Positions 2,663 through 26,326 of a stretch of DNA of 38,815 nt are shown here, piece after piece. A model generated the notes under the pieces. It had not been told where the DNA came from. It did no database searches and was given only the letters and a program-made list of their open reading frames with translations. Position 1 is the stretch's first letter. Every line of letters starts with the position of its first letter. The DNA is from Methanosarcinales archaeon (GTDB taxonomy: Archaea > Halobacteriota > Syntropharchaeia > Alkanophagales > Methanospirareceae): positions 1 to 38,815 of the forward strand of contig JAUWQN010000008.1 in NCBI GenBank assembly GCA_030611045.1. The letters are read 5' to 3'. The position numbers and the translations under genes were made by a program.

Positions 2663-4354
2663 TTACGGTATGATGAGATCTCTCTCACCTGCCGGCTTGA
2701 ACTCACGCAGCGCACCTCTTCCGAACTCCCGGGTTATGTAGCCCCAGTCGAACGGCAGGTCTCTGTCCGCGAACGCAACCTTGATCAACGGCGACAGCAC
2801 CCAGGCATCTTTACTGGAAAGATGCGCACCCGCGTTTATTCCCGCGTATGCGCTCTGGTGCCCGACGTTCATCGCGAAGTTCGGATAGTTCACGCCTCGC
2901 ATCTCGAACGGCAGCCCCTCGTCGCTTCGGTATGCAAACGAAGTCGAGGAGGTACACTGGTCTTGCAGATCGTAGCCATAGAACCCTAACCTGCCTATGG
3001 TACCGTAGTGCAGCAACTGAGCAAGTCCCCAGCCGTTCAGCCCACACTGTGCGCATCCGGTCGCACTCACGACCGCGGTTGCACACCCTGCAGAGGTACA
3101 GCAAGCCCTAACAGACCCGCCGAAGTGAGACTCCGCAGTCGTTGGGTACGCATCGTACTGCGTCAGGGCGTAATCGTTCTCGGCTCGTACCAACTTCTCT
3201 ATGTTCTCCATGGTTGGCTCTGCCGCACACCTATCACCGAACATGTCTATTGCAATCTCATCCGCTTTGTAACAGAAGTCCTCCAGAATGTTGTCCGTGT
3301 AGGTAGCCGACGCGTATTGCGTGAATCCAACACCACCCGACATGTACGTTCCGAACCACAACTGGTCGTAAATCAGAGCGGCGGCTGCAATAGCCTCTAA
3401 CTCCGCCCTTATCGGGTCATTCGGGAACAGTGCGGGTGATCTCGTCATGTCATCACAGATACCCAGTGGCATTCCGCCTGGCTCGTTGGGCGCTCTCGCT
3501 CTCCTTACTGGCATATAGTTCGCCATCATCACGACGGACGCATGCTTCGCCATGAATGCGAACTCACCGGTTGCCGATTCACCAGCACACATCTTGTATG
3601 CATTGATGAACGACATCCCGACCTGCATGCCGACCCATCGGTACATCGTTCCACCATCTGACTGCCTGCCGACGATCGTTGGCATCCTCATGATGCTCCA
3701 TAACTTCTTGCCGATCGCTCCTTTCAACTGCTCTGCCTGCTCACCCGGCTTCTCCCAGCCTGCTGGGAACTCCTTGTTGATGTCTAACAGGAACCTCCTG
3801 TCAATTGCATCCGCAAGGTCGTCATCACCGGTGAATACCTTTGAGTACGAATCCGAGACTAATGCGGGCTTGGTCTCCACCATGTGCTCCTGAATGGTTG
3901 CACCACCAGGTAAGGCGTGGTTTACCACTTCCAGGTAATTGCTTATGGTATCCGGCGTGACTTCCTTACCCAATCTCGTCTCCAGAATCGCATGTGCGTC
4001 ATCCATTCCTAAAATAATTGTCCTCCTCATGTCGTCATGGCACTGTTGCATCGCGGCATTGTTCACCCAGTGCAGGTCGTCCATGTTCACCATCATGTCC
4101 GTGTGGTTCAGCATGTAAGGCATCAAGAATCGCTGCCCTTGCGGCATCCCCACGTCTGGATTATATGCTGGAGTTCCAGAAACACGACTATCTACGATCT
4201 TCTTCGCGTCCTCTACGAACTCTCTCTTCCTCAATCCTCCTTTCTGCGCGATACCGCCGTACACGTAAAACTTCGTCTTGGTGCCCTCTGGCTTCTCGGC
4301 GAACTTATCCGACATCGCTTTCATGAAACTATGTTGTACATCTCCATATGGCAT
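2663..4354 (-). CDS. mcrA: Methyl-coenzyme M reductase alpha subunit, ANME-1 type
   Basis: GFTQYA, PVRRARAPNEPGG, LGFYGYDLQDQC, NYAMNVGHQ-like motifs; GGSVRACC shows Val at the methyl-Gln position and a Cys-rich stretch. Confidence 0.98.
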   Translation of the reverse strand: MPYGDVQHSFMKAMSDKFAEKPEGTKTKFYVYGGIAQKGGLRKREFVEDAKKIVDSRVSGTPAYNPDVGMPQGQRFLMPYMLNHTDMMVNMDDLHWVNNAAMQQCHDDMRRTIILGMDDAHAILETRLGKEVTPDTISNYLEVVNHALPGGATIQEHMVETKPALVSDSYSKVFTGDDDLADAIDRRFLLDINKEFPAGWEKPGEQAEQLKGAIGKKLWSIMRMPTIVGRQSDGGTMYRWVGMQVGMSFINAYKMCAGESATGEFAFMAKHASVVMMANYMPVRRARAPNEPGGMPLGICDDMTRSPALFPNDPIRAELEAIAAAALIYDQLWFGTYMSGGVGFTQYASATYTDNILEDFCYKADEIAIDMFGDRCAAEPTMENIEKLVRAENDYALTQYDAYPTTAESHFGGSVRACCTSAGCATAVVSATGCAQCGLNGWGLAQLLHYGTIGRLGFYGYDLQDQCTSSTSFAYRSDEGLPFEMRGVNYPNFAMNVGHQSAYAGINAGAHLSSKDAWVLSPLIKVAFADRDLPFDWGYITREFGRGALREFKPAGERDLIIP

Positions 4355-4372
4355 TTTTTTATTCCTCCTTGT

Positions 4373-5209
4373 TTACTCCACTCCTCCTCTCGGAGTATAA
4401 AGCTTCATCCCCTTTACGCCTACGCCTTTATTTCCCGGTAGATCCGCTCTATTCTTGAATGGCTGGAATCCGCCCCAGGTTCTGTTCCAGTGTATCTCTG
4501 ATATGACGTCACCCACTTCGGGGTCGTCTCCTTCCAACCAGACACCGCCCTGAGCATTTCTGAACATCGTTGTCCTCTTCCTTAATTCGTCCTCTGACAG
4601 TGGCTTTCCTAATACCACTTCCTTGTCCATTGCACCGCCGACCATATCCTTAACGTATTTTATGTCGCCGTTCGGGTCACGTGACCATCTCCTCAGCGCA
4701 TCGAACATTACTCCGTCCTGATCCAATCGAACAGAATGCCCGTGAACAGTCCTTCCTCTCAGTCCAGTCCTTGCAGTGTCATACGTCTCATTGTCCATGT
4801 ACTCTTTTGCGATCGCCTCGACATCTCTTTCTCGCGCTTCTACAATCGTCCTCCCTGACAACACACCGGGGTCCACACCTCTATATCTGGTGAACCACAT
4901 CATCGGTCTGATTCTCGGTGTTGCAGGTGCGAAGAACATCGAGTCGGTGAATTGCACGTATCGAATCCTGTCGCCTGCCGCTGCTCCTGGCGTTGGCTTT
5001 ACCATCTCGCGAACAGAGCATTCCGGCTCTTCCAGCTCCTCTATTGGCGGATGAATGCTCTTGTAAGCTTCTCCAGGTGCGCGGTGTCCGAGCATTCTCA
5101 CTATATCTTCCTCTGCTATATCCCGCAACTTCTCTAACTTCTTGGAGGGATCCATGAACTTTCTGCGGTTATCGCCTATAATACTACTTCCAGGTGTATA
5201 TTGTGGCAT
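4373..5209 (-). CDS. mcrG: Methyl-coenzyme M reductase gamma subunit
   Basis: LGHRAPGEAYKSIHPPIEE, GRTVHGHSVRLDQDGVMFD, TLFRN-like motif; between mcrB and mcrA. Confidence 0.97.
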   Translation of the reverse strand: MPQYTPGSSIIGDNRRKFMDPSKKLEKLRDIAEEDIVRMLGHRAPGEAYKSIHPPIEELEEPECSVREMVKPTPGAAAGDRIRYVQFTDSMFFAPATPRIRPMMWFTRYRGVDPGVLSGRTIVEARERDVEAIAKEYMDNETYDTARTGLRGRTVHGHSVRLDQDGVMFDALRRWSRDPNGDIKYVKDMVGGAMDKEVVLGKPLSEDELRKRTTMFRNAQGGVWLEGDDPEVGDVISEIHWNRTWGGFQPFKNRADLPGNKGVGVKGMKLYTPRGGVE

Positions 5210-5225
5210 TTTTTTCTTTCCTCCT

Positions 5226-6545
5226 TTACATTATCTCCTTTGCGCCTTCCGCGACTGCTTTCATTGGCTCTGCAAACTCAGGTATCGAACCCAGCACTTC
5301 TCCATACAGGCCTGACGTCCTTGTCGGGGTGAAATACTGCGTGTCCGCGTCTATGCACATCGCAGCGCAGAAGCACGGTATGAACTGCCCCTTAGCATGC
5401 CTTGTAACGATGTGGTTTCCGTGGAATACTCCCGGTCCGCCGCCTCCATAAATGGAGTGCGAGAAGAACGAACTCGATACAGATGCTCCCTGTGCTTTTC
5501 CATAATCAACGCCCGGAAGTCCGGTCTCATGCTCCAACAGCTCGTTGAAGTACATGATGCTCGATGGAACCGGCTGGCCAGCACGCATTGCAGCACAATT
5601 CACCATCACCGCGGCAAGCATTCCCGTTGAGGCGTATGCATTCCACATCTGCAAATCGTCCACACCAAAGACCGTATAGCCCGATCCCAGCTTCGTCTTC
5701 GGCTTTGCCACGCCATCCGCTTTTGCCTTCTCCACCAGGGCATACACGACATCTCCAAGCGTTCCGTCCTGTCCATTCTCCTTTATCAGGGTGTAAAGCA
5801 TGTTGTTCGCATTCAGTCCCTCGTATGCAAAGTCTAAGAGATGACCACGCTCAAAAGGACCAACTGCATCACCCATCTCATAGCACGCTGACTCTTCCAG
5901 TATCATGGACAAACATGCTCCGGGCATCGCTCTCTTCCGTACCGTTGCTGCAATGTGGTTCACCGGGATATTCCTCAGGGTATATCCTGGCCCCTCATTA
6001 CTTATCGGCACGTCCACCAACGTTGCCACGACAGTTCCGGTCATTGCTGGATCCTGCGGGTACATCCCCCATACGGCCGCCTTAATGTCAGGCGCCTTCC
6101 ACATGTCCACATTAAAGGTGTCAATGAGGGCTTGCGTCAGTGCCGCACAGACGTTTGTCCTGGCAGCCGAGTAGTCCGCAAGGATTCTCGCTGAAGGCAC
6201 TTCGACCAATAGCCGCTTTCCACCACCAATTAAGTCCGCTCGGGTCTCGTCTCCTGCTTCGACCTCGATCATGTCCTTCACTCGAGCCGCTATCTCGCTT
6301 CCTTTCCCCACGATGTCCAGATCCATGCTCTTGTTGCGTATGACCATCTGTTTCCCTGCGATTGCGCCAGATGATAGCTTCTTCTCCAGTCCTGCTAAGT
6401 CAACAGCCGCTAACCGAGCCACCATGCCGCAGATCTTCCTTATCGCGGGGTTTCTCAGAGGGCTGAGCGCAGTTAGCGGTACGTCGCCCAATAGTTTGTT
6501 GCCTCTATCGTCGTATAAGTCTACTTTATCCTCTATCTTAGCCAT
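5226..6545 (-). CDS. mcrB: Methyl-coenzyme M reductase beta subunit
   Basis: KIEDKVDLYDDRGNKLL..., SSFFSHSIYGGGGPGVFHGNHIVTRH motif; first gene of mcrBGA. Confidence 0.98.
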   Translation of the reverse strand: MAKIEDKVDLYDDRGNKLLGDVPLTALSPLRNPAIRKICGMVARLAAVDLAGLEKKLSSGAIAGKQMVIRNKSMDLDIVGKGSEIAARVKDMIEVEAGDETRADLIGGGKRLLVEVPSARILADYSAARTNVCAALTQALIDTFNVDMWKAPDIKAAVWGMYPQDPAMTGTVVATLVDVPISNEGPGYTLRNIPVNHIAATVRKRAMPGACLSMILEESACYEMGDAVGPFERGHLLDFAYEGLNANNMLYTLIKENGQDGTLGDVVYALVEKAKADGVAKPKTKLGSGYTVFGVDDLQMWNAYASTGMLAAVMVNCAAMRAGQPVPSSIMYFNELLEHETGLPGVDYGKAQGASVSSSFFSHSIYGGGGPGVFHGNHIVTRHAKGQFIPCFCAAMCIDADTQYFTPTRTSGLYGEVLGSIPEFAEPMKAVAEGAKEIM

Positions 6546-10090: not shown

Positions 10091-10936
10091 GTGGATGTCA
10101 CAAAAATGAGAGCCGAGAAGATAAAGGAAGCGGTAAGAGATGGCTATGCTAAGATAGCCAAGAAGGAGAGTTCTTGCTGTGCTACCGAGAATTTCTGCTG
10201 CGGAAGCACTGACTTGGCAGAGGATATCAGCAAGAAAATAGGTTACAGTGAAGAAGACCTGAAAGCGGTTCCTGAAGGTGCGAATCTCGGTCTTGGATGT
10301 GGTAATCCTGTCGCTCTTGCCTCTTTAAAAGAAGGAGAGACCGTTCTTGACCTTGGTTCAGGTGCTGGGTTTGATTGCTTTCTCGCGGCCGATAGAGTGG
10401 GGACGGAGGGCAGAATCATTGGTGTTGATATGACACCAGAGATGCTCGCGAAAGCCAGAGAAAACGCTGAGAAAGGCAATTACGATAATGTAGAATTCAG
10501 GCTGGGAGAGATTGAAAATCTACCTCTTGCCGATAATTCCGTTGATGTTGTTATTTCAAACTGTGTGATCAACCTTTCACCTAAAAAAGCAAGAGTCTTT
10601 AAAGAAGCTTTCCGGGTGCTAAAATCCGGCGGAAGGATGATGATATCCGATGTAGTCCTGTTGATGGAGCTTCCTGATTTCATAAAAGACTCCGTCGAGG
10701 CGTATATCGGTTGCCTTTCAGGTGCAATTATGAAAGATGAGTACCTGAAATTGATAGATGCGGCAGGCTTTCAGGATGTCGGGATACTGGATGAGACTTC
10801 GTTTCCTATCGAGTGTATGGCAAATGATCCGACCGCAAAGGCAATCATTGCGGATTTGAAGATACCCGTTGAAAAAGCAAAAGAGGTTGCAGGTTCCGTG
10901 ACGAGCATAAAAGTCAGAGGCGTAAAGCCAAGATAG
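10091..10936 (+). CDS. arsM: Arsenite methyltransferase (ArsM-like)
   Basis: SSCCATENFCCG, GLGCGNPVALASLKEGETVLDLGSGAGFDCFLAA, SNCVINLSPKKARVFKEAFRVLKSGGRMMISD. Confidence 0.9.
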   Translation: MDVTKMRAEKIKEAVRDGYAKIAKKESSCCATENFCCGSTDLAEDISKKIGYSEEDLKAVPEGANLGLGCGNPVALASLKEGETVLDLGSGAGFDCFLAADRVGTEGRIIGVDMTPEMLAKARENAEKGNYDNVEFRLGEIENLPLADNSVDVVISNCVINLSPKKARVFKEAFRVLKSGGRMMISDVVLLMELPDFIKDSVEAYIGCLSGAIMKDEYLKLIDAAGFQDVGILDETSFPIECMANDPTAKAIIADLKIPVEKAKEVAGSVTSIKVRGVKPR

Positions 10937-12489: not shown

Positions 12490-12894
12490 TTAAATAGGGA
12501 TATCCCCCAAACAATTGACCTTCTTCTCTCCAGACCCTGTCAGGTGGTATATCAAGAAGTTCCCGTCTTTCGTGCACTCTATTAGTCCTGCTTCTTTCAG
12601 CCGCTTCAAATGGTAAGAGAGCTTCGAGTATTCACAATCCATAAGTTCAGTTAAGACACAGACACACAGGTCTTGTATACGCAATGCCTTCAGTATCCGT
12701 ACTCTTATAGGGTCTGAAAGAGCTTTAAAAAGCGCAACCGTATCACTGACATCCTCGCTCATAACCTCCTTTACTTTTTCTAAGGTCTCCGTAGATATTG
12801 TGTAAGAAGGCGGGATTTTACAGGGGGTATTTTGACTGCACGATGCTGAACGGCTATTGTTTACCTTTGCTTTACGGTCAAATACTTGCACCAT
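12490..12894 (-). CDS. arsR: ArsR-family winged-helix metalloregulator (paralog 1; likely start Met 12894)
   Basis: ALFKALSDPIRVRILKALRIQDLCVCVLTELMDCEYSKLSYHLKRLKEAGLI. Confidence 0.9.
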   Translation of the reverse strand: MVQVFDRKAKVNNSRSASCSQNTPCKIPPSYTISTETLEKVKEVMSEDVSDTVALFKALSDPIRVRILKALRIQDLCVCVLTELMDCEYSKLSYHLKRLKEAGLIECTKDGNFLIYHLTGSGEKKVNCLGDIPI

Positions 12895-13417
12895 TTTCAC
12901 CTCCTGTAGATTTGCTGGAATTCTTCTTATCACTCAACCCAATCATCCATTCTATGAACACTCCCATGATAGCTACAAAGATAATCGTCAAAACAAGTCT
13001 CGATACCATAAATTTTGGCCCAAGGAATTGGAGTTCCACCAGCTCTTGCGGGATCTTTATACACGCCCATGCCGAAAGGAAAATAACGATATTGGAGATG
13101 CGAGCACCTTTTTTGATCAGTGACGATGCCATAGGAAAAGCCACATAAAGGGGACCTGTTGGCAATGTACCAAAGAGTATGGCAAGGAAAATACCTTTGA
13201 TTCCCGAAGTTTTTCCCAGGTATTTCACAACCGTTTCTTTTGACACCCACACCGTAAAAAGCCCCATGACCACCATTACCGCAGGTAGTATCACCATCAT
13301 TTCAAGAAAATAATCCCAGGAGGTTGTAGTTACAATATCCACTCTATCCGGGAAGATCAATAGAATGGTTGCTGCAACAATCAGAGTTGCTCCTAACAGG
13401 ATATAATCCCTTATCAT
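12878..13417 (-). CDS. Half-size permease (ArsP/DUF318-like)
   Basis: Hydrophobic; KYLGKTSGIKGIFLAILFGTLPTGPLYVAFPMASSLIKKGARISNIVIFLSAW. Confidence 0.75.
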   Translation of the reverse strand: MIRDYILLGATLIVAATILLIFPDRVDIVTTTSWDYFLEMMVILPAVMVVMGLFTVWVSKETVVKYLGKTSGIKGIFLAILFGTLPTGPLYVAFPMASSLIKKGARISNIVIFLSAWACIKIPQELVELQFLGPKFMVSRLVLTIIFVAIMGVFIEWMIGLSDKKNSSKSTGGENGASI

Positions 13418-13469
13418 TGCTTTTATTTCCTCTGCTTTTCTTTGCTTTGCTTTCCTCTTTCTTCCATTT

Positions 13470-13952
13470 TCATAGAATCACACCCATGATAAGCGCAATT
13501 ACAATTGCAATTACGAAACTTATTCCGTTCCGAAGCAGCGCTATTTTCTTACCCAGCTCCTTTACTTCCAATGGCAACGTAGCCGTTCCGACCATAGTCA
13601 GTGTGGTGATGAAAGCGGCAACCGCAGAAATTGATGCCCCGCTCTTAAGAAGAGACCCGGCCAGCGGAAATGAAATGATTGCTGGCATATGCAGTATTGC
13701 ACCCAATAATGCGATAAATAGTACTCCGTCAAACCCCGATTGCTCACCTATAACCTTAGAGATTTCGCTCGGCGGCACGAAGCCTAAAAGCAGACCTATA
13801 ACGATTATAATAATGAGAACAGGGGGTAGAATGCGGAAGAATGATTTTACCGCCACTTTTACTGATTGCTCCGTTTTTGCTCTGTCCTTAGTAAAAGCGA
13901 GAATAAGGCAGCCGAGAGCGAAAAGATTGATGAAAATAATTGTTGGATTCAT
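13470..13952 (-). CDS. Half-size permease (ArsP/DUF318-like), second half; start re-set to MNPTIIF
   Basis: GFVPPSEISKVIGEQSGFDGVLFIALLGAILHMPAIISFPLAGSLLKSGASISAVAAFITT. Confidence 0.75.
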   Translation of the reverse strand: MNPTIIFINLFALGCLILAFTKDRAKTEQSVKVAVKSFFRILPPVLIIIIVIGLLLGFVPPSEISKVIGEQSGFDGVLFIALLGAILHMPAIISFPLAGSLLKSGASISAVAAFITTLTMVGTATLPLEVKELGKKIALLRNGISFVIAIVIALIMGVIL

Positions 13953-13954
13953 TT

Positions 13955-14830
13955 TTATCCCTTCTCCCCCTTCAGCATCTCTGCCAGATATTCCCCTTCC
14001 TCTGTTATCATCACCACATCCTCGTATATATCCACGAAATGCCCTTTCTTCAGCATACCGAGATGAAAATTCAATTCCCACTCTGAAAGAGCGAAAATAT
14101 CCTTCAACTCTCCTTTATGTGCCTGCATAACTCCACTCAGGTATTTTATAATACTCTTCCTCCTCTTGTTCCTCCTTACATCCATCACGTCCTTCATCGC
14201 AAGAGTAGGCTGTTTTCTTTCTCCCTGTGCCAGCCACGGCTTCTTCACCGTCCAGATAATTTTATGAAGTAAAGGCTCTCCAAAAGCTCCCGGATCATAG
14301 AGCCGATATTTCTCCCCCTTATACGAAAAGTCCGTTGGATTCTCTTGGTAACAGCACTTTATTGCTTCTGAAACTATCTCCTTGTCCATGCAGTCCACCA
14401 GGTCTAAAACACTTATCTGCTGTCGGAATCTCTCGATTACTTCTAATGGTAGATTGTACAAGTAGGGTGTGGGTGCTTTAGCCCCGATAATATTCTTCTT
14501 CTCATTTACCCCGTTTTTCGCTAACGCCACGACTGCATCACCTACTAAGTGACCCGGCGACTCCTCGCCACAGACCACCAAATATCTGATGTTCGGGTTC
14601 GCAACCACATTACACACCATCTTTTCTATCCCAATGTTTTCGGTCTGCAACAACCCTGCCAAAGCCGCTCCGGCATCTAAAGCTGTCATCACAAGCTCTT
14701 CAAGCTCATTTGGTATCTTAAAATCAAAAGTATTGAGTATAACGCATACCGCAACAGGTGAATAGTCATTCCCTCTTGCGTATCTCCCCTCCTCTGGTGG
14801 GTACTCCTCAGGCAGCTTTACTTTTAGCAT
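13955..14830 (-). CDS. MtrA-like corrinoid protein fused to C-terminal winged-helix domain
   Basis: EYPPEEGRYARGNDYSPVAV, QTENIGIEKMVCNVVANPNIRYLVVCGEESPGHLVGDA, IGAKAPTPYLYNLPLEVIERFRQQ as in MtrA; C-term RRKSIIKYLSGVMQAHKGELKDIFALSEWELNFHLGMLKKGHFV wHTH-like instead of the MtrA TM helix. Confidence 0.85.
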   Translation of the reverse strand: MLKVKLPEEYPPEEGRYARGNDYSPVAVCVILNTFDFKIPNELEELVMTALDAGAALAGLLQTENIGIEKMVCNVVANPNIRYLVVCGEESPGHLVGDAVVALAKNGVNEKKNIIGAKAPTPYLYNLPLEVIERFRQQISVLDLVDCMDKEIVSEAIKCCYQENPTDFSYKGEKYRLYDPGAFGEPLLHKIIWTVKKPWLAQGERKQPTLAMKDVMDVRRNKRRKSIIKYLSGVMQAHKGELKDIFALSEWELNFHLGMLKKGHFVDIYEDVVMITEEGEYLAEMLKGEKG

Positions 14831-14938
14831 TTTTCACACCATCACCAAAAGATTAAACGAACCAATATCCCCTCTGTGCTTTGTCAACCCATTGACCACA
14901 TCTTTGCGCACTTCTACTTTTATATTCATTCTCATCAC

Positions 14939-15088
14939 TTATCTGCAGCAACAACCGCTGCTAGAGGGAAGCAAATTATGCCATTCATTTTCCCGGCACT
15001 CGATGCATATCTTTATAATTCCAAGTTCCCGGTGGTTTGCTCGAAGCAGCGCCACACCGTCCTTACCACATATCTCGCATTTGGTCAT
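14939..15088 (-). CDS. 49-aa zinc-ribbon-like protein with Cys-rich C-terminal tail
   Basis: Hand translation MTKCEICGKDGVALLRANHRELGIIKICIECRENEWHNLLPSSSGCCCR*; CxxC...CxxC plus GCCCR end; similar to ORF 26183-26326; below ORF-track size cut-off. Confidence 0.7.
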   Translation of the reverse strand: MTKCEICGKDGVALLRANHRELGIIKICIECRENEWHNLLPSSSGCCCR

Positions 15089-15089
15089 A

Positions 15090-15173
15090 TCAATACACCC
15101 CGATATGTTTTAGCTCCTTTTGCCTTCGTAATATCTCTACTGAAATATTCGCGTAAGAATTTTTAATGAGCAT
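15090..15173 (-). CDS. Possible 27-aa ORF between exporter and zinc-ribbon gene
   Basis: MLIKNSYANISVEILRRQKELKHIGVY*; stop and next ATG almost abut. Confidence 0.3.
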   Translation of the reverse strand: MLIKNSYANISVEILRRQKELKHIGVY

Positions 15174-15196: not shown

Positions 15197-16168
15197 TCAC
15201 GCCCCCACACTCATCTCTGATGGTAGCCGCATCTTCAAGAAGATTTGATAGAAAGCGACAGCGGTGAGCATCTGGAAAGCGAAGCCGACAGCCACTGGTA
15301 GCATCACCAACCCCTTAAAGCTCATCACCGCTATGCCCAGTGCGATCGGCAGGTTCTTCATTCCGGAAGCGTAAGTGATGGCTATGTTCTTCCCTCGCGG
15401 TAATAACTTTGCGCTCACCAGATATGCCACGATGAACAGAATAGGGAAAACGAGAATGGTGGAAGTTACCAGAGGCGCTATTAGCCCCAGATTATTCATG
15501 ATAGCGGGAACAGCGGTATTTATTGCCATGAACATGAGGAGCACGGCGGTTGTTGCTGAGATGGCGGGCATTACCGGTAGGTGTTTTCTCACGTCCACCA
15601 TCCTTTGCACCAGCTCTCTTAATGCTATACCGCCGAGCACGGGCAGAAGCACGGTATACATGACCATTTTGAACATTTCAAAGGTGTCAATGGTTACAAA
15701 TGTCCCTGCGAAGAGGAGCATCAGGAGAGGTATGAGAAAAGGTGCCAGTATCATGGTAGCGGCATTGATTACTGTTGCCAGTGGCACGTCACCCTCAAGT
15801 AGTCCCGCCCACACCAGAGCCATCCCCGCACAGGGGACAACGCCGATCAATATCAAGCCCGTAGCCAGGTCTGGATAATTTGAAAGGAGCAATAGGGCTA
15901 AAAGCCAGCAGAGAAGGGGGGCAAAAAGGAAGTTCAGCAGGAGTCCAAAGGAAAAGCATTTCCAGTCCTTCGCAGCCATGCCCAGGCTCTTAAAGGTGAT
16001 GGTGAAGCCCATCGCGCCTATCATGATGATGATCAAGGGGGCGCTGAACTTGCGAATGAAAATGCCTGGTGCGGGCGTGATTAGCCCCACGATTATCGCC
16101 ACAGCAAGCGTGCTGATGATTACGTATGCATACTTCTCCCGCATGAAGCGAGCATAGGCGAGTATCAT
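15197..16168 (-). CDS. ACR3/bile-acid:sodium-symporter (BASS) family exporter
   Basis: GLILIGVVPCAGMALVWAGLLEGDVPLATVINAATMILAP; YASGMKNLPIALGIAVMSF. Confidence 0.85.
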   Translation of the reverse strand: MILAYARFMREKYAYVIISTLAVAIIVGLITPAPGIFIRKFSAPLIIIMIGAMGFTITFKSLGMAAKDWKCFSFGLLLNFLFAPLLCWLLALLLLSNYPDLATGLILIGVVPCAGMALVWAGLLEGDVPLATVINAATMILAPFLIPLLMLLFAGTFVTIDTFEMFKMVMYTVLLPVLGGIALRELVQRMVDVRKHLPVMPAISATTAVLLMFMAINTAVPAIMNNLGLIAPLVTSTILVFPILFIVAYLVSAKLLPRGKNIAITYASGMKNLPIALGIAVMSFKGLVMLPVAVGFAFQMLTAVAFYQIFLKMRLPSEMSVGA

Positions 16169-16254
16169 GATTTAGTGTTTAACCTGTCACCGTCACACAA
16201 CCATTCCCAAAAAGGCTTGAAAGCAAATGTTAGCATATCTTCCGAGCTTTTCAT
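16165..16254 (-). CDS. Putative 29-aa peptide gene with ATGA overlaps at both ends
   Basis: MKSSEDMLTFAFKPFWEWLCDGDRLNTKS*; ATG overlaps DUF169 stop (ATGA) and its stop overlaps the exporter ATG (ATGA). Confidence 0.55.
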   Translation of the reverse strand: MKSSEDMLTFAFKPFWEWLCDGDRLNTKS

Positions 16255-17009
16255 CTTTCACCCTTCCTCTCACCGAGTCTCGCTTTCACATAGCCTATCC
16301 TTGGCAGATTCTCCAGCACTTCCCCGAGCATCTCCGCCGGCAAGCCAACCAACACAGCTTCATCAAGGTATTCGCATCCAACCCCACGAGCAACCATCCT
16401 TGCGGACTCGCAGGCTATTGTGAGGTTAAGCTCACCAGATAGATATGGTCTTACAGTAGCATAGGCGCAGACCTGCCTTGGTGTAGAAATCCAGTTCTCT
16501 GTTCTTCCGCCAACGTCGCATAGGGAAGCGTGAATGAGTTCAAATGCCCTCCTCGGTATAGCCTCTATAAGGATTACGTCGGGTTCCACAGGTGTTTCTG
16601 CTAAAGGCGCTAAGAGCGTGGCGTATATTCTTCCGGGCTCAAGGCTGGGTGAAGCTTCCACAAACTCCCGCCCTGCTCTGAGGCTGCTACAAGACGCCTT
16701 GTCCAGATAGAATTCTCCGGTTTCCTCCTCCTCTGGAATTTCGCATAGACCTAAAGCGGAAGCACCTCGCTTACACTCGTGCACAGCCTCTCTCGCATAG
16801 AACACATTACCGAGCATCGCATACTTCACCATTGCGCAGTAAAACATCGGTTTTTCAAGCTCTTCCACACCCTCTGGAATCAGTTCCTTATGCCTGATCA
16901 GTCTAACCGCCACAGGGGGGTACTTCAAATCCAGAATGTTCATCAGTTTTTCCTGTACTTCTGAGTGATCCATGCTTCCATAATCCTCATTCTCTTTTTT
17001 CTCTTCCAT
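16251..17009 (-). CDS. DUF169 family protein
   Basis: LDLKYPPVAVRLI, PMFYCAMVKYA, PDVILIEAIPRRAFELIHA, IACESARM. Confidence 0.8.
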   Translation of the reverse strand: MEEKKENEDYGSMDHSEVQEKLMNILDLKYPPVAVRLIRHKELIPEGVEELEKPMFYCAMVKYAMLGNVFYAREAVHECKRGASALGLCEIPEEEETGEFYLDKASCSSLRAGREFVEASPSLEPGRIYATLLAPLAETPVEPDVILIEAIPRRAFELIHASLCDVGGRTENWISTPRQVCAYATVRPYLSGELNLTIACESARMVARGVGCEYLDEAVLVGLPAEMLGEVLENLPRIGYVKARLGERKGER

Positions 17010-17022
17010 CTTTCTTTTCCTC

Positions 17023-17868
17023 CTAAATTGGCAGCCCCAGCCACGAGAATACCCCGATCATCTTCAATCCCATGTAGATCATCACCACAATGAAGACGTA
17101 TTTTAATTCTTTTGCCGGCAGTTTATGAGCAACTCTGACGCCAACTTGCGCCATCGGAACGCTCGTTACAGCAAGGGCAAGCCAGGATTCCGGGTTCACA
17201 TATCCTATCAGATGTCCAATGGGATAGGCACCATACACGCCTGCCACCAGGCCGTTATAGATATAGCCAGCTAATCCGCCTATGGAAGTGAATATCATCA
17301 GTGCGGTTGACGTCCCGACTGCCTGATGCATCTTGAATTTTAATGCAAGCACCATTATTGGTATCATGAGCACGCCGCCACCAATACCGATTATTCCTGT
17401 CACAATTCCAATTGGAATGCCCCATGCGGCCCATATCCAGGGATTATCTTTTGGTTTTTCTTCAATCTTTGGTGGCTTTGCTGTAAGCATCCTGACGCCA
17501 CCCGCAAGAATCGCAAGACCAAAAGCTACGGTCAATATCTTTGCAGGCAGATGTGCCGCGATTGTCGCTCCAATTACCGCCCCAACGGCCCCAGTTAGAC
17601 CTAAAACGATTCCCGCTTTCCACCATACCGCTCCCTTTTTCGTATGCCCGTAAGCGCCACTTGCCGCAGTCGGAAGCACCACGAACAGGTTCGTGCCGAA
17701 AGCAATCAAGATAGCCGCATTAGGGTCCATGCCCATCCCAGTATATACCCAATACTGAACAGGAATCATGATGAAGCATCCGCCGACACCGAGAAGCCCG
17801 CTTGCGAAGCCCACGCCGAGACCTGTAATCAGCAACACAATTATCGCAGTCAAAAAGCTGATAGGCAT
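17023..17868 (-). CDS. TauE/SafE family sulfite/anion permease
   Basis: GVGFASGLLGVGGCFIMIPVQYW, GIPIGIVTGIIGIGGGVLMIPIMV repeated motifs. Confidence 0.9.
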   Translation of the reverse strand: MPISFLTAIIVLLITGLGVGFASGLLGVGGCFIMIPVQYWVYTGMGMDPNAAILIAFGTNLFVVLPTAASGAYGHTKKGAVWWKAGIVLGLTGAVGAVIGATIAAHLPAKILTVAFGLAILAGGVRMLTAKPPKIEEKPKDNPWIWAAWGIPIGIVTGIIGIGGGVLMIPIMVLALKFKMHQAVGTSTALMIFTSIGGLAGYIYNGLVAGVYGAYPIGHLIGYVNPESWLALAVTSVPMAQVGVRVAHKLPAKELKYVFIVVMIYMGLKMIGVFSWLGLPI

Positions 17869-17972
17869 CACGCGCCACCTCTTTTACCCATTGCATCCTT
17901 CAACGCTTCCTTCTTCGGAACCATACCAAAAAACTTCAACTCTTTATTCATTACGCTTATTTTCATACTCAT
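17868..17972 (-). CDS. Putative 34-aa peptide gene, first ORF of the TauE-ars operon
   Basis: MSMKISVMNKELKFFGMVPKKEALKDAMGKRGGA*; TGATG overlap with TauE start; directly downstream of TATA-palindrome. Confidence 0.45.
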   Translation of the reverse strand: MSMKISVMNKELKFFGMVPKKEALKDAMGKRGGA

Positions 17973-18039: not shown

Positions 18040-18375
18040 TCAATCTGCTATCTCAGCAATGAGCCCCAGTATCTTTCTTCCCAAATCGGTTAGCCCATAA
18101 ATCAAAAAGCTACCTTCTCTTCTAAAATCCACCAAATCCGCTTCCTTCAGTAGTTTCAGATGATAAGATAATGCAGAATATTTGTAATTCGTTACCTCGA
18201 CAAAAATGCATACACAAAGATCTTCTATCCCCAACGCCTTTAATATCTTTATCCTCCCGGGATCGGATAAAGCCTTGAAAATGGATGCTATACGCTCAAC
18301 ATCTTCCTTTACCAGGTCTCTTACTTTTTCTAAGGTCTCTGATGATATATTATATGAAGGCGGTATAGTTGTCAT
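18040..18375 (-). CDS. arsR: ArsR-family winged-helix metalloregulator (paralog 2)
   Basis: SIFKALSDPGRIKILKALGIEDLCVCIFVEVTNYKYSALSYHLKLLKEADLV. Confidence 0.92.
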   Translation of the reverse strand: MTTIPPSYNISSETLEKVRDLVKEDVERIASIFKALSDPGRIKILKALGIEDLCVCIFVEVTNYKYSALSYHLKLLKEADLVDFRREGSFLIYGLTDLGRKILGLIAEIAD

Positions 18376-18391
18376 ACTTCATCCCCATCTC

Positions 18392-19462
18392 TCAACCAAA
18401 GAAACCCCTCGTGCGTTTGCATAGCCATACGAGGAAGAGCATGATGGGAACCTCTGTGAGAACGCCAACGACTGTCGCAAGTGCCGCACCGGATGTCACG
18501 CCAAACAGGGTAGTGGCAACTGCTATTGCAACCTCAAAATGGTTACTGCCTGCGATGATTGCAGTCGGTGCGGCATCCTCATAGCTCAATTTTAAGGGCT
18601 TTGAGATGAGATACGTGATTGCGAAAACTACTATAATGTTAACAAAGATACCGACTGTGATCATACCGATTATCGCAGGAAGTTCAACTATCTTCTCGCC
18701 CTGATAGGTGAAGAGCACGACTAATGTGAACAACAGCGCTATTATCGACATATTACCTAAACGAGGAACAAGTTTCTCTTCAAACCAGCCCATACCTTTT
18801 CTTTTAATTGCTTGGTCCCGCGTAATCCACCCGGCTACCAAGGGGGTGCAGATGTAAATGAGCACCGCGAGAGCTATAGTCTTCCAGGGCACCACTATAC
18901 CAGAAACACCGATGAGGAACGTAGCCAGAGGCGCAAATAAGAAAACCATTGTCAGAGAGTTTATCGCAGTCATCACAAGCGTGTGACCCATGTTCCCTTC
19001 AGCCAGATAGCTCCACACCAAGACCATTGCCGTACAAGGTGCAACGCCTAACAGAATCAAGCCCGCTATGTATTGTTGGATAAGCGGTATCTCACCGAGG
19101 GGTGTTAGCGTTGCTTCTTGCGGCAAATACGGTGAAAAGACCACGCCTAAAAAGAACCATGCGAAAAAAGCCATGGTGAATGGTTTTATCGCCCAGTTCA
19201 TGAACAGGGTAGTGGCTATTGGTTTTGGCGTGTAAATCGCTTTTTTCACCTCTCCAAAGCTAATTTGGACCATTATTGGGTATATCATGGCAAACAGGCA
19301 GATGGCGATGGGGATGGAGATATGCGCCACCTCCAATATTGCCAGAAGCTCAGAGAGTTGTGGAAACACTCTGCCAATGGTAGTGCCTGCAAGTATGCAG
19401 AGTATAACCCATACATAGAGATATTTTCCCCAGATTCCTAGTTTTCTTTCTTTGTTTCCCAT
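18392..19462 (-). CDS. acr3: Arsenite efflux permease ACR3
   Basis: MIYPIMVQISFGEV, GLILLGVAPCTAMVLVWSYLAEGN, AIIAGSNHFEVAIAVATTLFG. Confidence 0.94.
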   Translation of the reverse strand: MGNKERKLGIWGKYLYVWVILCILAGTTIGRVFPQLSELLAILEVAHISIPIAICLFAMIYPIMVQISFGEVKKAIYTPKPIATTLFMNWAIKPFTMAFFAWFFLGVVFSPYLPQEATLTPLGEIPLIQQYIAGLILLGVAPCTAMVLVWSYLAEGNMGHTLVMTAINSLTMVFLFAPLATFLIGVSGIVVPWKTIALAVLIYICTPLVAGWITRDQAIKRKGMGWFEEKLVPRLGNMSIIALLFTLVVLFTYQGEKIVELPAIIGMITVGIFVNIIVVFAITYLISKPLKLSYEDAAPTAIIAGSNHFEVAIAVATTLFGVTSGAALATVVGVLTEVPIMLFLVWLCKRTRGFFG

Positions 19463-19465
19463 TTC

Positions 19466-19882
19466 TCACTCTCCCCTCTTCTTCTCGCAATCGAAGCAAT
19501 AATCCTTCTGCACATTGCCTGAAAACTCCTTTCCACATCCTTTGCACGTTACCTTGTACAAGGGATATGGTTTCTTCTTACTCATCTTCGCCTGCTCTTG
19601 GAGGTAATACAAGCATGCACATGGCGCTTCTGTCTTATTGTTTACTGCTCTTCCCGAAATCCAGCCCTCCACATCCCCCTTAGAGGGAACTCTACCTGTG
19701 CTTTTGAGCTCTCCATCCACGAAGACCGCAGGTGTTACCATAACGCCACGGTCTACAATTTCGTTGATATCAGAGACCGCAACAACCTCTGCATCCGTCT
19801 GCAAATCCCGAACTGCTCTCTCTATCAACTTTTTTGTTGCCCTGCACTTAGCACAGCCAACTCCAAAAACTTCTATTTTCAT
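19466..19882 (-). CDS. Redox-active disulfide (thioredoxin-fold) protein fused to Cys motif and C-terminal zinc ribbon; start re-set to MKIEVFG
   Basis: GVGCAKCRATKKLIERA...MVTPAVFVDGELKSTGRVPS + APCACLYYLQEQA + CKGCGKEFSGNVQKDYCFDCEKK. Confidence 0.85.
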   Translation of the reverse strand: MKIEVFGVGCAKCRATKKLIERAVRDLQTDAEVVAVSDINEIVDRGVMVTPAVFVDGELKSTGRVPSKGDVEGWISGRAVNNKTEAPCACLYYLQEQAKMSKKKPYPLYKVTCKGCGKEFSGNVQKDYCFDCEKKRGE

Positions 19883-20994
19883 CCCACTATACCTCCATAA
19901 ATCATCCCCGTTACTGTAGAGAAGAGCACAACCAAAACTATATAAACGGAAGCCTTCTTCCAGCCGATTGTCCTCCATATCACGACCATACACGGAAAGC
20001 TCAAGGAAGGCCCCGCGAGTAGAAGTGAGAGCGCGGGTCCCGCAGCCATCTGTCCGGTGGTGAACCCGAAAAGATCACCGACAATCGGAACTTCCAATAA
20101 TGTCGGCATATAAAGTATCGCACCGATTATGGAGGACAGGAAGCAAGAGAAAAAGGAATTAGTTCCAAAATAAGGTTTCATTAGCTCTCCAACTGCGATT
20201 TGAGGATTATGGGACGGCGCATAAATCGCTGCAAAACCGCCTATTAGCCCTATGACAAACACACCAGCCAAAAGAATTGGGAATATCCGCTTTGCGAGCC
20301 ACAATGTCTCCTGCCCCCATTCTTTGATCTCATCTCTCGAATAGTAGAAAATCAGGATAACGGCAACCCCTATCGTCATGAAATAGATGGCTGTTAGTTT
20401 CGTGACCCAGGAGATAAGCCCAGACGCGCCAACGAGGAGTATCGCCACCATAAGAGAGAAAAACAGTAGTACTATATACCAGGGTCGTTCCACCTCTGTA
20501 TTATCCACCATAGCAACCTCAGGAGCTTTGTGCTTCGCCCCCTCCTTCTTCACACCACGCTCAAATATCGTTGCCATAGTCAAACCGATTACCACGGCCA
20601 GTAAAACAGCACTCAACGCCCTCGCGATCCCTATACTCAGACCGAGAACGCGTGCAGTAAGAACAATGGCTAAGAGGTTTATCGCCGGCCCAGAATATAA
20701 GAAAGCAGTAGCGGGGCCTATGCCCGCACCCCGCCTGTAGATACCTGCGAACATCGGCAGTACAGTGCAACTGCAAACCGCGAGAATAGTGCCAGAGCAG
20801 GAAGCAACGCTGTACGATAGCCATTTCTTAGCTTTCGCACCGAAGTATTTTAGCACTGCATCCTTTGATAATAGCGCTGCTATCGCGCCAGCTATGAAAA
20901 AAGCAGGCACTAAACAGGTCAGAACATGGAGTGAGAGATATTCCATCAGCGTATCCAAACCAGCTTCCACAATTTCAGTTAGCATCGCCAGCAT
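19879..20994 (-). CDS. Two-domain permease (ArsP/DUF318-like)
   Basis: KYFGAKAKKWLSYSVASCSGTILAVCSCTVLPMFAGIYRRGAGIGPATAFLYSGPAINLLAI. Confidence 0.88.
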   Translation of the reverse strand: MLAMLTEIVEAGLDTLMEYLSLHVLTCLVPAFFIAGAIAALLSKDAVLKYFGAKAKKWLSYSVASCSGTILAVCSCTVLPMFAGIYRRGAGIGPATAFLYSGPAINLLAIVLTARVLGLSIGIARALSAVLLAVVIGLTMATIFERGVKKEGAKHKAPEVAMVDNTEVERPWYIVLLFFSLMVAILLVGASGLISWVTKLTAIYFMTIGVAVILIFYYSRDEIKEWGQETLWLAKRIFPILLAGVFVIGLIGGFAAIYAPSHNPQIAVGELMKPYFGTNSFFSCFLSSIIGAILYMPTLLEVPIVGDLFGFTTGQMAAGPALSLLLAGPSLSFPCMVVIWRTIGWKKASVYIVLVVLFSTVTGMIYGGIVG

Positions 20995-26182: not shown

Positions 26183-26326
26183 ATGAAAATGGTGAAGTGT
26201 GAATTATGTGGGACGGAAACGGATGCTGCGCAGGAACTGTACGGGCGAATGATGTGCCGGGACTGCTATGAGTATTATAAGGCGTATGATGAGAGACGTT
26301 CCAGAGGATGCTGCTTCTGTAGATGA
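26183..26326 (+). CDS. 47-aa zinc-ribbon-like protein with Cys-rich C-terminal tail
   Basis: Hand translation MKMVKCELCGTETDAAQELYGRMMCRDCYEYYKAYDERRSRGCCFCR*; immediately follows nifU stop and overlaps the thiF 5' end; same architecture as ORF 14939-15088. Confidence 0.7.
   Translation: MKMVKCELCGTETDAAQELYGRMMCRDCYEYYKAYDERRSRGCCFCR

Follow-up and report, generated by a model that had tools for sequence, protein, structure and literature searches.

Cysteine-tailed microproteins form a conserved family in archaeal arsenic operons and are candidate trivalent-arsenic chaperones or buffers

An arsenic gene cluster of a Methanosarcinales archaeon encodes a 49-residue protein that belongs to an undescribed family, distinguished by its own cysteine tail and found near arsenic genes in two archaeal phyla. 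In our judgement, there is about an even chance that this is a translated arsenic-resistance microprotein that acts as a chaperone or buffer for trivalent arsenic, ArsD-like in role, yet unrelated. The DNA analyzed here, i.e. the window, is the whole stretch of 38,815 nucleotides at positions 1 to 38,815 of contig JAUWQN010000008.1 (assembly GCA_030611045.1).

Read on the minus strand, positions 15088 to 14939 encode the peptide MTKCEICGKDGVALLRANHRELGIIKICIECRENEWHNLLPSSSGCCCR; the plus strand at the same positions gives a different translation, and an earlier reading made from the sequence alone (the sequence-only reading), which had noticed a small protein here, named no strand. The gene is real: it has an ATG start, a TAA stop and a Shine-Dalgarno-like sequence (GGGGTG) immediately 5' of the start, and is presumably translated in the cell. 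Its cysteines are at positions 4, 7, 28, 31, 46, 47 and 48, with no others, so arranged that CEICG (4–8), His19 and CIEC (28–31) are followed by a terminal SGCCCR. Against a hidden Markov model (HMM) built without this peptide, it scored 73.1 bits; the highest score among 1000 shuffles with every cysteine held in place was 17.9 bits with the same model.

When 99 related genomes were searched with the single sequence, approximately 25–30 copies were found in the window's own taxonomic family, and matches as good as E = 1e-8 came from a different family within the phylum. Profile matches at E ≤ 1e-6 were present in approximately 62 of the 397 genomes of the phylum and in 37 of the 251 genomes of Thermoproteota; with the looser threshold of E ≤ 0.01, 84 of the 397 phylum genomes matched, the weakest of these matches probably being N-terminal, MBF1-like ribbons of longer frames. 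Family records include Methanosarcina, Methanosaeta, Methanophagales and ANME-1 as well as Thermoproteota and Bathyarchaeota.

The family alignment consists of a C-x2-C motif, a His-x3-Gly block (NHxELGxIK), a second C-x2-C, a variable linker and the cysteine tail. Within the core, CxxC-x(8-16)-H ... CxxC, the histidine (H19 in the window peptide) is present in 76 of 77 distinct homologues, and all 77 have at least two cysteines among the last eight residues. The tail itself is thus conserved, as the sequence-only reading had supposed, although its proposed family form, GCCxCR, has to be replaced: in the arsenic-type alignments the tail is mostly [G/S]CxCC[R/K], the commonest form being [G/S]-C-x-C-C-[R/K] or a terminal CxCC, and GCCCR of the window is one residue shorter. 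Homologues across two archaeal phyla, evolving under purifying selection (median dN/dS 0.13–0.17), bear out the earlier suggestion of a real small-protein family below the usual length cut-offs; the outcomes that reading had named against itself, an absence of homologues elsewhere and an unconserved tail, were examined and neither holds. Searches of Pfam, NCBIfam and PDB sequences yielded no family match, only sub-threshold zinc-finger noise, and no publication on the family was found in the main texts of the open-access literature.

In the window, the small-protein gene lies in a tightly packed minus-strand run of frames from the SBF/ACR3-like gene to the downstream ArsR gene, flanked by gaps of 0–3 bp (Table 1). 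Read along the minus strand, the order is ACR3, ArsR, TauE-like, DUF169, SBF/ACR3-like, small protein, MtrA-HTH, two half ArsP genes and ArsR. The substrates of the permeases are those suggested by family membership. The 27-aa frame that separates the small-protein gene from the SBF gene may encode a leader peptide or a second microprotein. The pair of half-size ArsP genes (window 12878–13952) recurs in the same gene order in a Methanosarcinaceae genome, G068 (L031:510–1579). The fusion of an MtrA corrinoid domain with a winged-helix-like domain within an arsenic operon (window 13955–14830), in which the assignment of the HTH part is weak, is possibly a corrinoid-based sensor or a methyl carrier for methylarsenicals. 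Elsewhere in the window, putative genes for methyl-coenzyme M reductase subunits were recognized by eye in the order McrA, McrG, McrB (2663–6545, minus strand).

Table 1 Features of the arsenic gene cluster and associated small proteins (window positions unless a locus is given).
Feature	Position	Strand	Evidence or remark
ArsM arsenite methyltransferase	10091..10936	+	NF008823 6e-109, above cut-off
ArsR/SmtB metalloregulator	12490..12933	-	NF033788 above cut-off
Half-size ArsP_1 permease (b)	12878..13417	-	PF03773
Half-size ArsP_1 permease (a)	13470..13952	-	PF03773; start at 13952
MtrA-domain corrinoid protein with C-terminal winged-helix-like domain	13955..14830	-	PF04208 1e-44; NF002126 above cut-off
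34-aa reading frame, doubtful gene	14834..14938	-	Zero gap after small protein; MtrA-HTH gene 3 bp on
Arsenic-type small protein, 49 aa, CxxC-His19-CxxC core and SGCCCR tail	14939..15088	-	Translation, alignments, HMM
27-aa reading frame, strong Shine-Dalgarno GAGGTGA	15090..15173	-	Sequence; ends 1 bp 5' of small protein
SBF/ACR3-like transporter	15197..16168	-	PF01758 5e-28; TIGR00832 acr3 3e-18, under its cut-off
DUF169 protein	16251..17009	-	DUF169 also in relatives' arsenic loci L031, L126, L178
TauE-like gene	17023..17871	-	In the same minus-strand run
Second ArsR/SmtB metalloregulator	18040..18375	-	NF033788 above cut-off
True ACR3 arsenite exporter	18392..19462	-	TIGR00832 2e-108, above cut-off
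MTH895/ArsE-family thioredoxin-like protein	19466..19993	-	TIGR00412 above cut-off
Full-length ArsP-type permease	19879..20994	-	PF03773 2.5e-63; best NCBIfam SaoE, below cut-off
Other small Cys-tailed protein, separate family upstream of ThiF-YcaO	26183..26326	+	Own family; profile-profile comparison
101-aa CCCC protein	L052:5593-5898, L135:4898-5203, L145:4818-5123		Upstream of small gene

The association with arsenic and thiol genes claimed in the sequence-only reading extends to relatives, in which the neighbourhood with ArsR, ArsP and ACR3 is conserved. Among the Methanosarcinaceae, an ArsP_1 permease gene was found within 3 kb of 28 of the 34 copies, compared to 0.23 expected by chance; because the genomes are related, the Poisson estimate treats them as more independent than they are, although several genera show the same tie. 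Two of the six exceptions (L121 and L122) are near ACR3, and another (L031) adjoins an ArsR-ArsM fusion and, like the window, has DUF169 and split ArsP genes. Of 37 loci scanned with one reference set, 28 have ArsR/ArsM, ArsP or ACR3 within 3 kb, and in genomes of other families (G383, G239, G203, G378, G115, G216 and G224) the sole ACR3 gene above the cut-off lies within approximately 3 kb of the small gene. The recurrent layouts are [small]-[ArsR]-[ACR3] and [101-aa CCCC protein]-[small]-[ArsR]-[ArsP]. In Thermoproteota (L178, L180 and L184), the small gene directly precedes ArsP with a gap of approximately 50 bp. Some distant members, notably the short-tailed copies in L131, L147 and L154, have no arsenic genes nearby.

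In the arsenic operons of Methanosarcinaceae, the gene directly 5' of the small one encodes the 101-aa protein, in which CCCC/CGCCG occurs close to the N-terminus. This protein has no Pfam or NCBIfam match and was not found in the window; in the three Thermoproteota loci, the small proteins are extended at the N-terminus by a CCD-bearing segment that may be related to it. A common exact operator palindrome was considered and rejected, given that a single genome, in two overlapping loci, accounts for every occurrence of the exact 18-mer.

Two subtypes of the family are distinguished by their sequences and surroundings. The window peptide scored 72.4 bits with the arsenic-type HMM vs. 36.9 bits with the Mrp-type HMM and so, by sequence, is clearly of the arsenic type, despite coming from a genome of the same family as the ANME-1 records. 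The ANME-1 copies, mostly 55 aa long, are usually found behind DUF5320, beside Mrp/NBP35, MinD-ferredoxin and NifX-like genes, and some adjoin an NrdD-like gene. Because this sister subfamily adjoins genes of the Mrp/MinD/NifX type rather than arsenic genes, the fold is not arsenic-specific. In three ANME-1 loci (L039, L044 and L088), the Mrp-type protein is encoded between DUF5320 and MinD/Mrp/NifX-like genes, an arrangement that resembles orange-protein (ORP) loci.

The small-protein gene is absent from seven genomes of the window's genus, several of them incomplete, and therefore the protein may have arrived together with the arsenic genes, which suggests that the arsenic island was acquired horizontally. 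A search of plasmid records with a Methanosarcina copy found no homologue.

The peptide at 26183–26326, which the sequence-only reading had placed in the same family as that at 14939–15088, belongs to a separate one. It lacks the conserved histidine, has 15 residues between its CxxC pairs vs. 20, and on its own did not match either model (E = 2.2 with the arsenic-type HMM and 0.39 with the Mrp-type HMM). Its protein family is conserved just 5' of ThiF-YcaO in ANME-1 relatives from the window's own archaeal family (L156–L174), as opposed to the ArsR/ArsP/ACR3 context. The part of the claim that stands is the relationship: profile-profile comparison of the two families gave a probability of 95.9%, whereas 60 shuffles that kept the cysteine columns of the alignment reached at most 30% and half the score, so that the two are probably distant homologues and not one family.

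The structure predicted for the small protein with AlphaFold2 (alignment A3; mean pLDDT 83.8, approximately 90 for the core and 57 for the tail) comprises a beta hairpin and a short helix in the core, followed by a loose tail. A Foldseek search of the PDB returned no match at E ≤ 0.001, the best matches being ZZ/PHD-like zinc fingers (E of approximately 0.8, TM of approximately 0.47), and we read the modelled fold as no more than zinc-knuckle-like. AlphaFold is unable to tell whether such cysteines hold a metal (PMC11241148).

Under the chaperone or buffer hypothesis, C4, C7, C28 and C31, possibly together with His19, would fold around one structural zinc, and the resulting core would serve as a small docking domain. 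The flexible tail (C46, C47 and C48; CxCC in relatives) would supply two to three free thiolates. Such ligands are preferred by As(III), and the known As(III) sites consist of three thiolates. Within the cytoplasm, the tail would capture trivalent arsenic, whether inorganic or methylated, thereby reducing the free pool, and pass it to the exporter encoded alongside, of the ArsP or ACR3 type, comparable to the service of ArsD to ArsA-ArsB but by means of an unrelated fold. An As(III)-binding chaperone for the exporter was also put forward in the sequence-only reading, and this part of it is plausible. Methylarsenite or another thiophilic metal, e.g. Hg, is a possible alternative ligand. Arsenic-type members have two to four cysteines C-terminal to the core, and the 20 of 49 with only two count against an As(III) role because the known sites use three.

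Three other roles have to be weighed against this one. The small protein could be a zinc-finger co-regulator similar to Brz that tunes transcription of the arsenic operon, perhaps with ArsR, with the tail as a sensor of As(III) or redox state, a reading that we consider unlikely even though several observations fit it. In 11 of 37 loci the next gene downstream is an ArsR gene of the same orientation, the small gene or its pair heads the operon in L152 and L135 after an AT-rich, palindrome-like stretch, the peptide conforms to the published CPxCG-related motif rule, relatives show weak similarity to the aMBF1 zinc ribbon, and Brz of Halobacterium, a microprotein encoded just 5' of its target, sets a precedent (PMC2253796). 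However, the regulatory role is already filled by ArsR, the copies in Thermoproteota, ANME-1 and the window are inside operons, next to transporters or enzymes rather than a regulator, and conserved free thiols in the tail are needless for a plain DNA-binding finger. Rather improbable, in our estimate, is a general carrier of thiols, persulfide or metal clusters that serves several anaerobic pathways (arsenic, Fe-S and Mo/Cu cofactor assembly). Several contexts speak for it: the sister subfamily adjoins Mrp/NBP35, MinD, NifX and DUF5320 genes, and MrpORP acts in Fe-S biogenesis (PMC6345978); the distant relative at 26183–26326 precedes ThiF-YcaO, a sulfur-chemistry operon; and thioredoxin-like, DsbD, DsrE, DGC and rhodanese genes are also present in the arsenic loci. 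Nevertheless, the commonest neighbours of the arsenic subtype are ArsR, ArsP and ACR3, the sulfur-type genes being rarer.

The remaining possibility is that the small protein supplies a cysteine ligand to the cobalt in the neighbouring MtrA-like corrinoid protein, in the manner of MtrI, which is small, has a zinc ribbon and coordinates the cobalt of MtrA through Cys40 (PMC12774963). The next large gene downstream indeed encodes an MtrA-domain protein, and MtrA-like genes were identified in five related arsenic loci (L055, L124, L136, L146 and L153). These five are the only loci of the scan with such a gene nearby, whereas ArsR, ArsP or ACR3 is near most; most family members have no MtrA-like neighbour, and the corrinoid partner offered by the sequence-only reading is a weak option. 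Furthermore, the 68 residues, 15-residue N-terminal ribbon and four helices of MtrI are unmatched by the small protein, for which the prediction gives a ribbon of 28 residues, two strands and a single short helix, and no Mtr chain was found when PDB sequences were searched with the peptide and the family profile. We regard this explanation as very unlikely.

What is known of arsenic handling by methanogens and anaerobic methanotrophs concerns chiefly enzymes and pumps, and the publications consulted name no chaperone for ArsP or ACR3. A widespread protein of approximately 50 aa, encoded at the head of or within many archaeal ars operons, provides a way to ask whether the pumps need one, and the family illustrates how cut-offs on short genes hide conserved operon members. 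Both sister contexts, that with Mrp/NifX and that with ThiF-YcaO, point tentatively to a common mechanism for the transfer of soft metals or sulfur. A broader proposal, which is tentative and in our view doubtful, is that these proteins are a new class of arsenic metallochaperones, unrelated to ArsD and present in methanogens, ANME-1 and Thermoproteota, that load ArsP or ACR3 via a flexible CxCC tail and, together with sister families serving Fe-S/Mo cofactor assembly (Mrp/NifX) and ThiF-YcaO sulfur chemistry, would constitute a superfamily of cysteine-tailed zinc-knuckle microproteins that pass on soft metals and sulfur.

Several known small proteins share individual features with the family. 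MtrI is a small archaeal protein with a zinc ribbon, a functional cysteine and MtrA as the partner, with the differences in size and fold given above. MtrR, a small protein of the Methanosarcina Mtr complex that binds MtrA, is also 49 aa long, but identity with it was rejected given that MtrR lacks aromatic residues and is restricted to Methanosarcina, whereas relatives of the small protein have in common a Trp C-terminal to the second CxxC; neither MtrI nor MtrR was found as a homologue. The N-terminal ribbon of archaeal MBF1 (TIGR00270), with its CxLCG...CxxC pattern, is what relatives match best, although weakly (E = 0.003; a homologue scores 17.3 bits vs. the curated cut-off of 110, and the window peptide has no match); the small protein, however, has no HTH domain, and MBF1 has no cysteine tail. 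CPxCG-related zinc fingers (Brz, HVO_2753 and HVO_0758) are similar in size, in the paired CxxC motifs, in being archaeal and in having been overlooked in annotation. The rule that defines them, i.e. CxxCG with a second CxxC 7–40 residues away in a protein of less than 100 aa (PMC2253796), describes the window peptide, which differs from them in the conserved histidine, the cysteine tail and the tie to arsenic genes; no common sequence family was shown. Five of the 14 tested Haloferax members of this class are zinc-free (PMC11241148), and hence zinc binding cannot be assumed for the small protein.

In ArsD, As(III) is bound by three N-terminal cysteines (12, 13 and 18), and C-terminal vicinal pairs are present in repressor ArsDs, where they are important for regulation (PMC4562236); the small protein does not show this combination of cysteines, and PF06953 (ArsD) matched neither the peptide nor anything else in the genome. 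The Pfam model of ArsD spans 123 positions, and the protein works with the ArsA ATPase, whereas the small protein has 49 aa, a zinc-knuckle core and ArsP/ACR3 neighbours. What the two have in common is that both are small, soluble, cysteine-rich ars-operon proteins with vicinal C-terminal cysteines and a proposed role in As(III) capture and hand-off.
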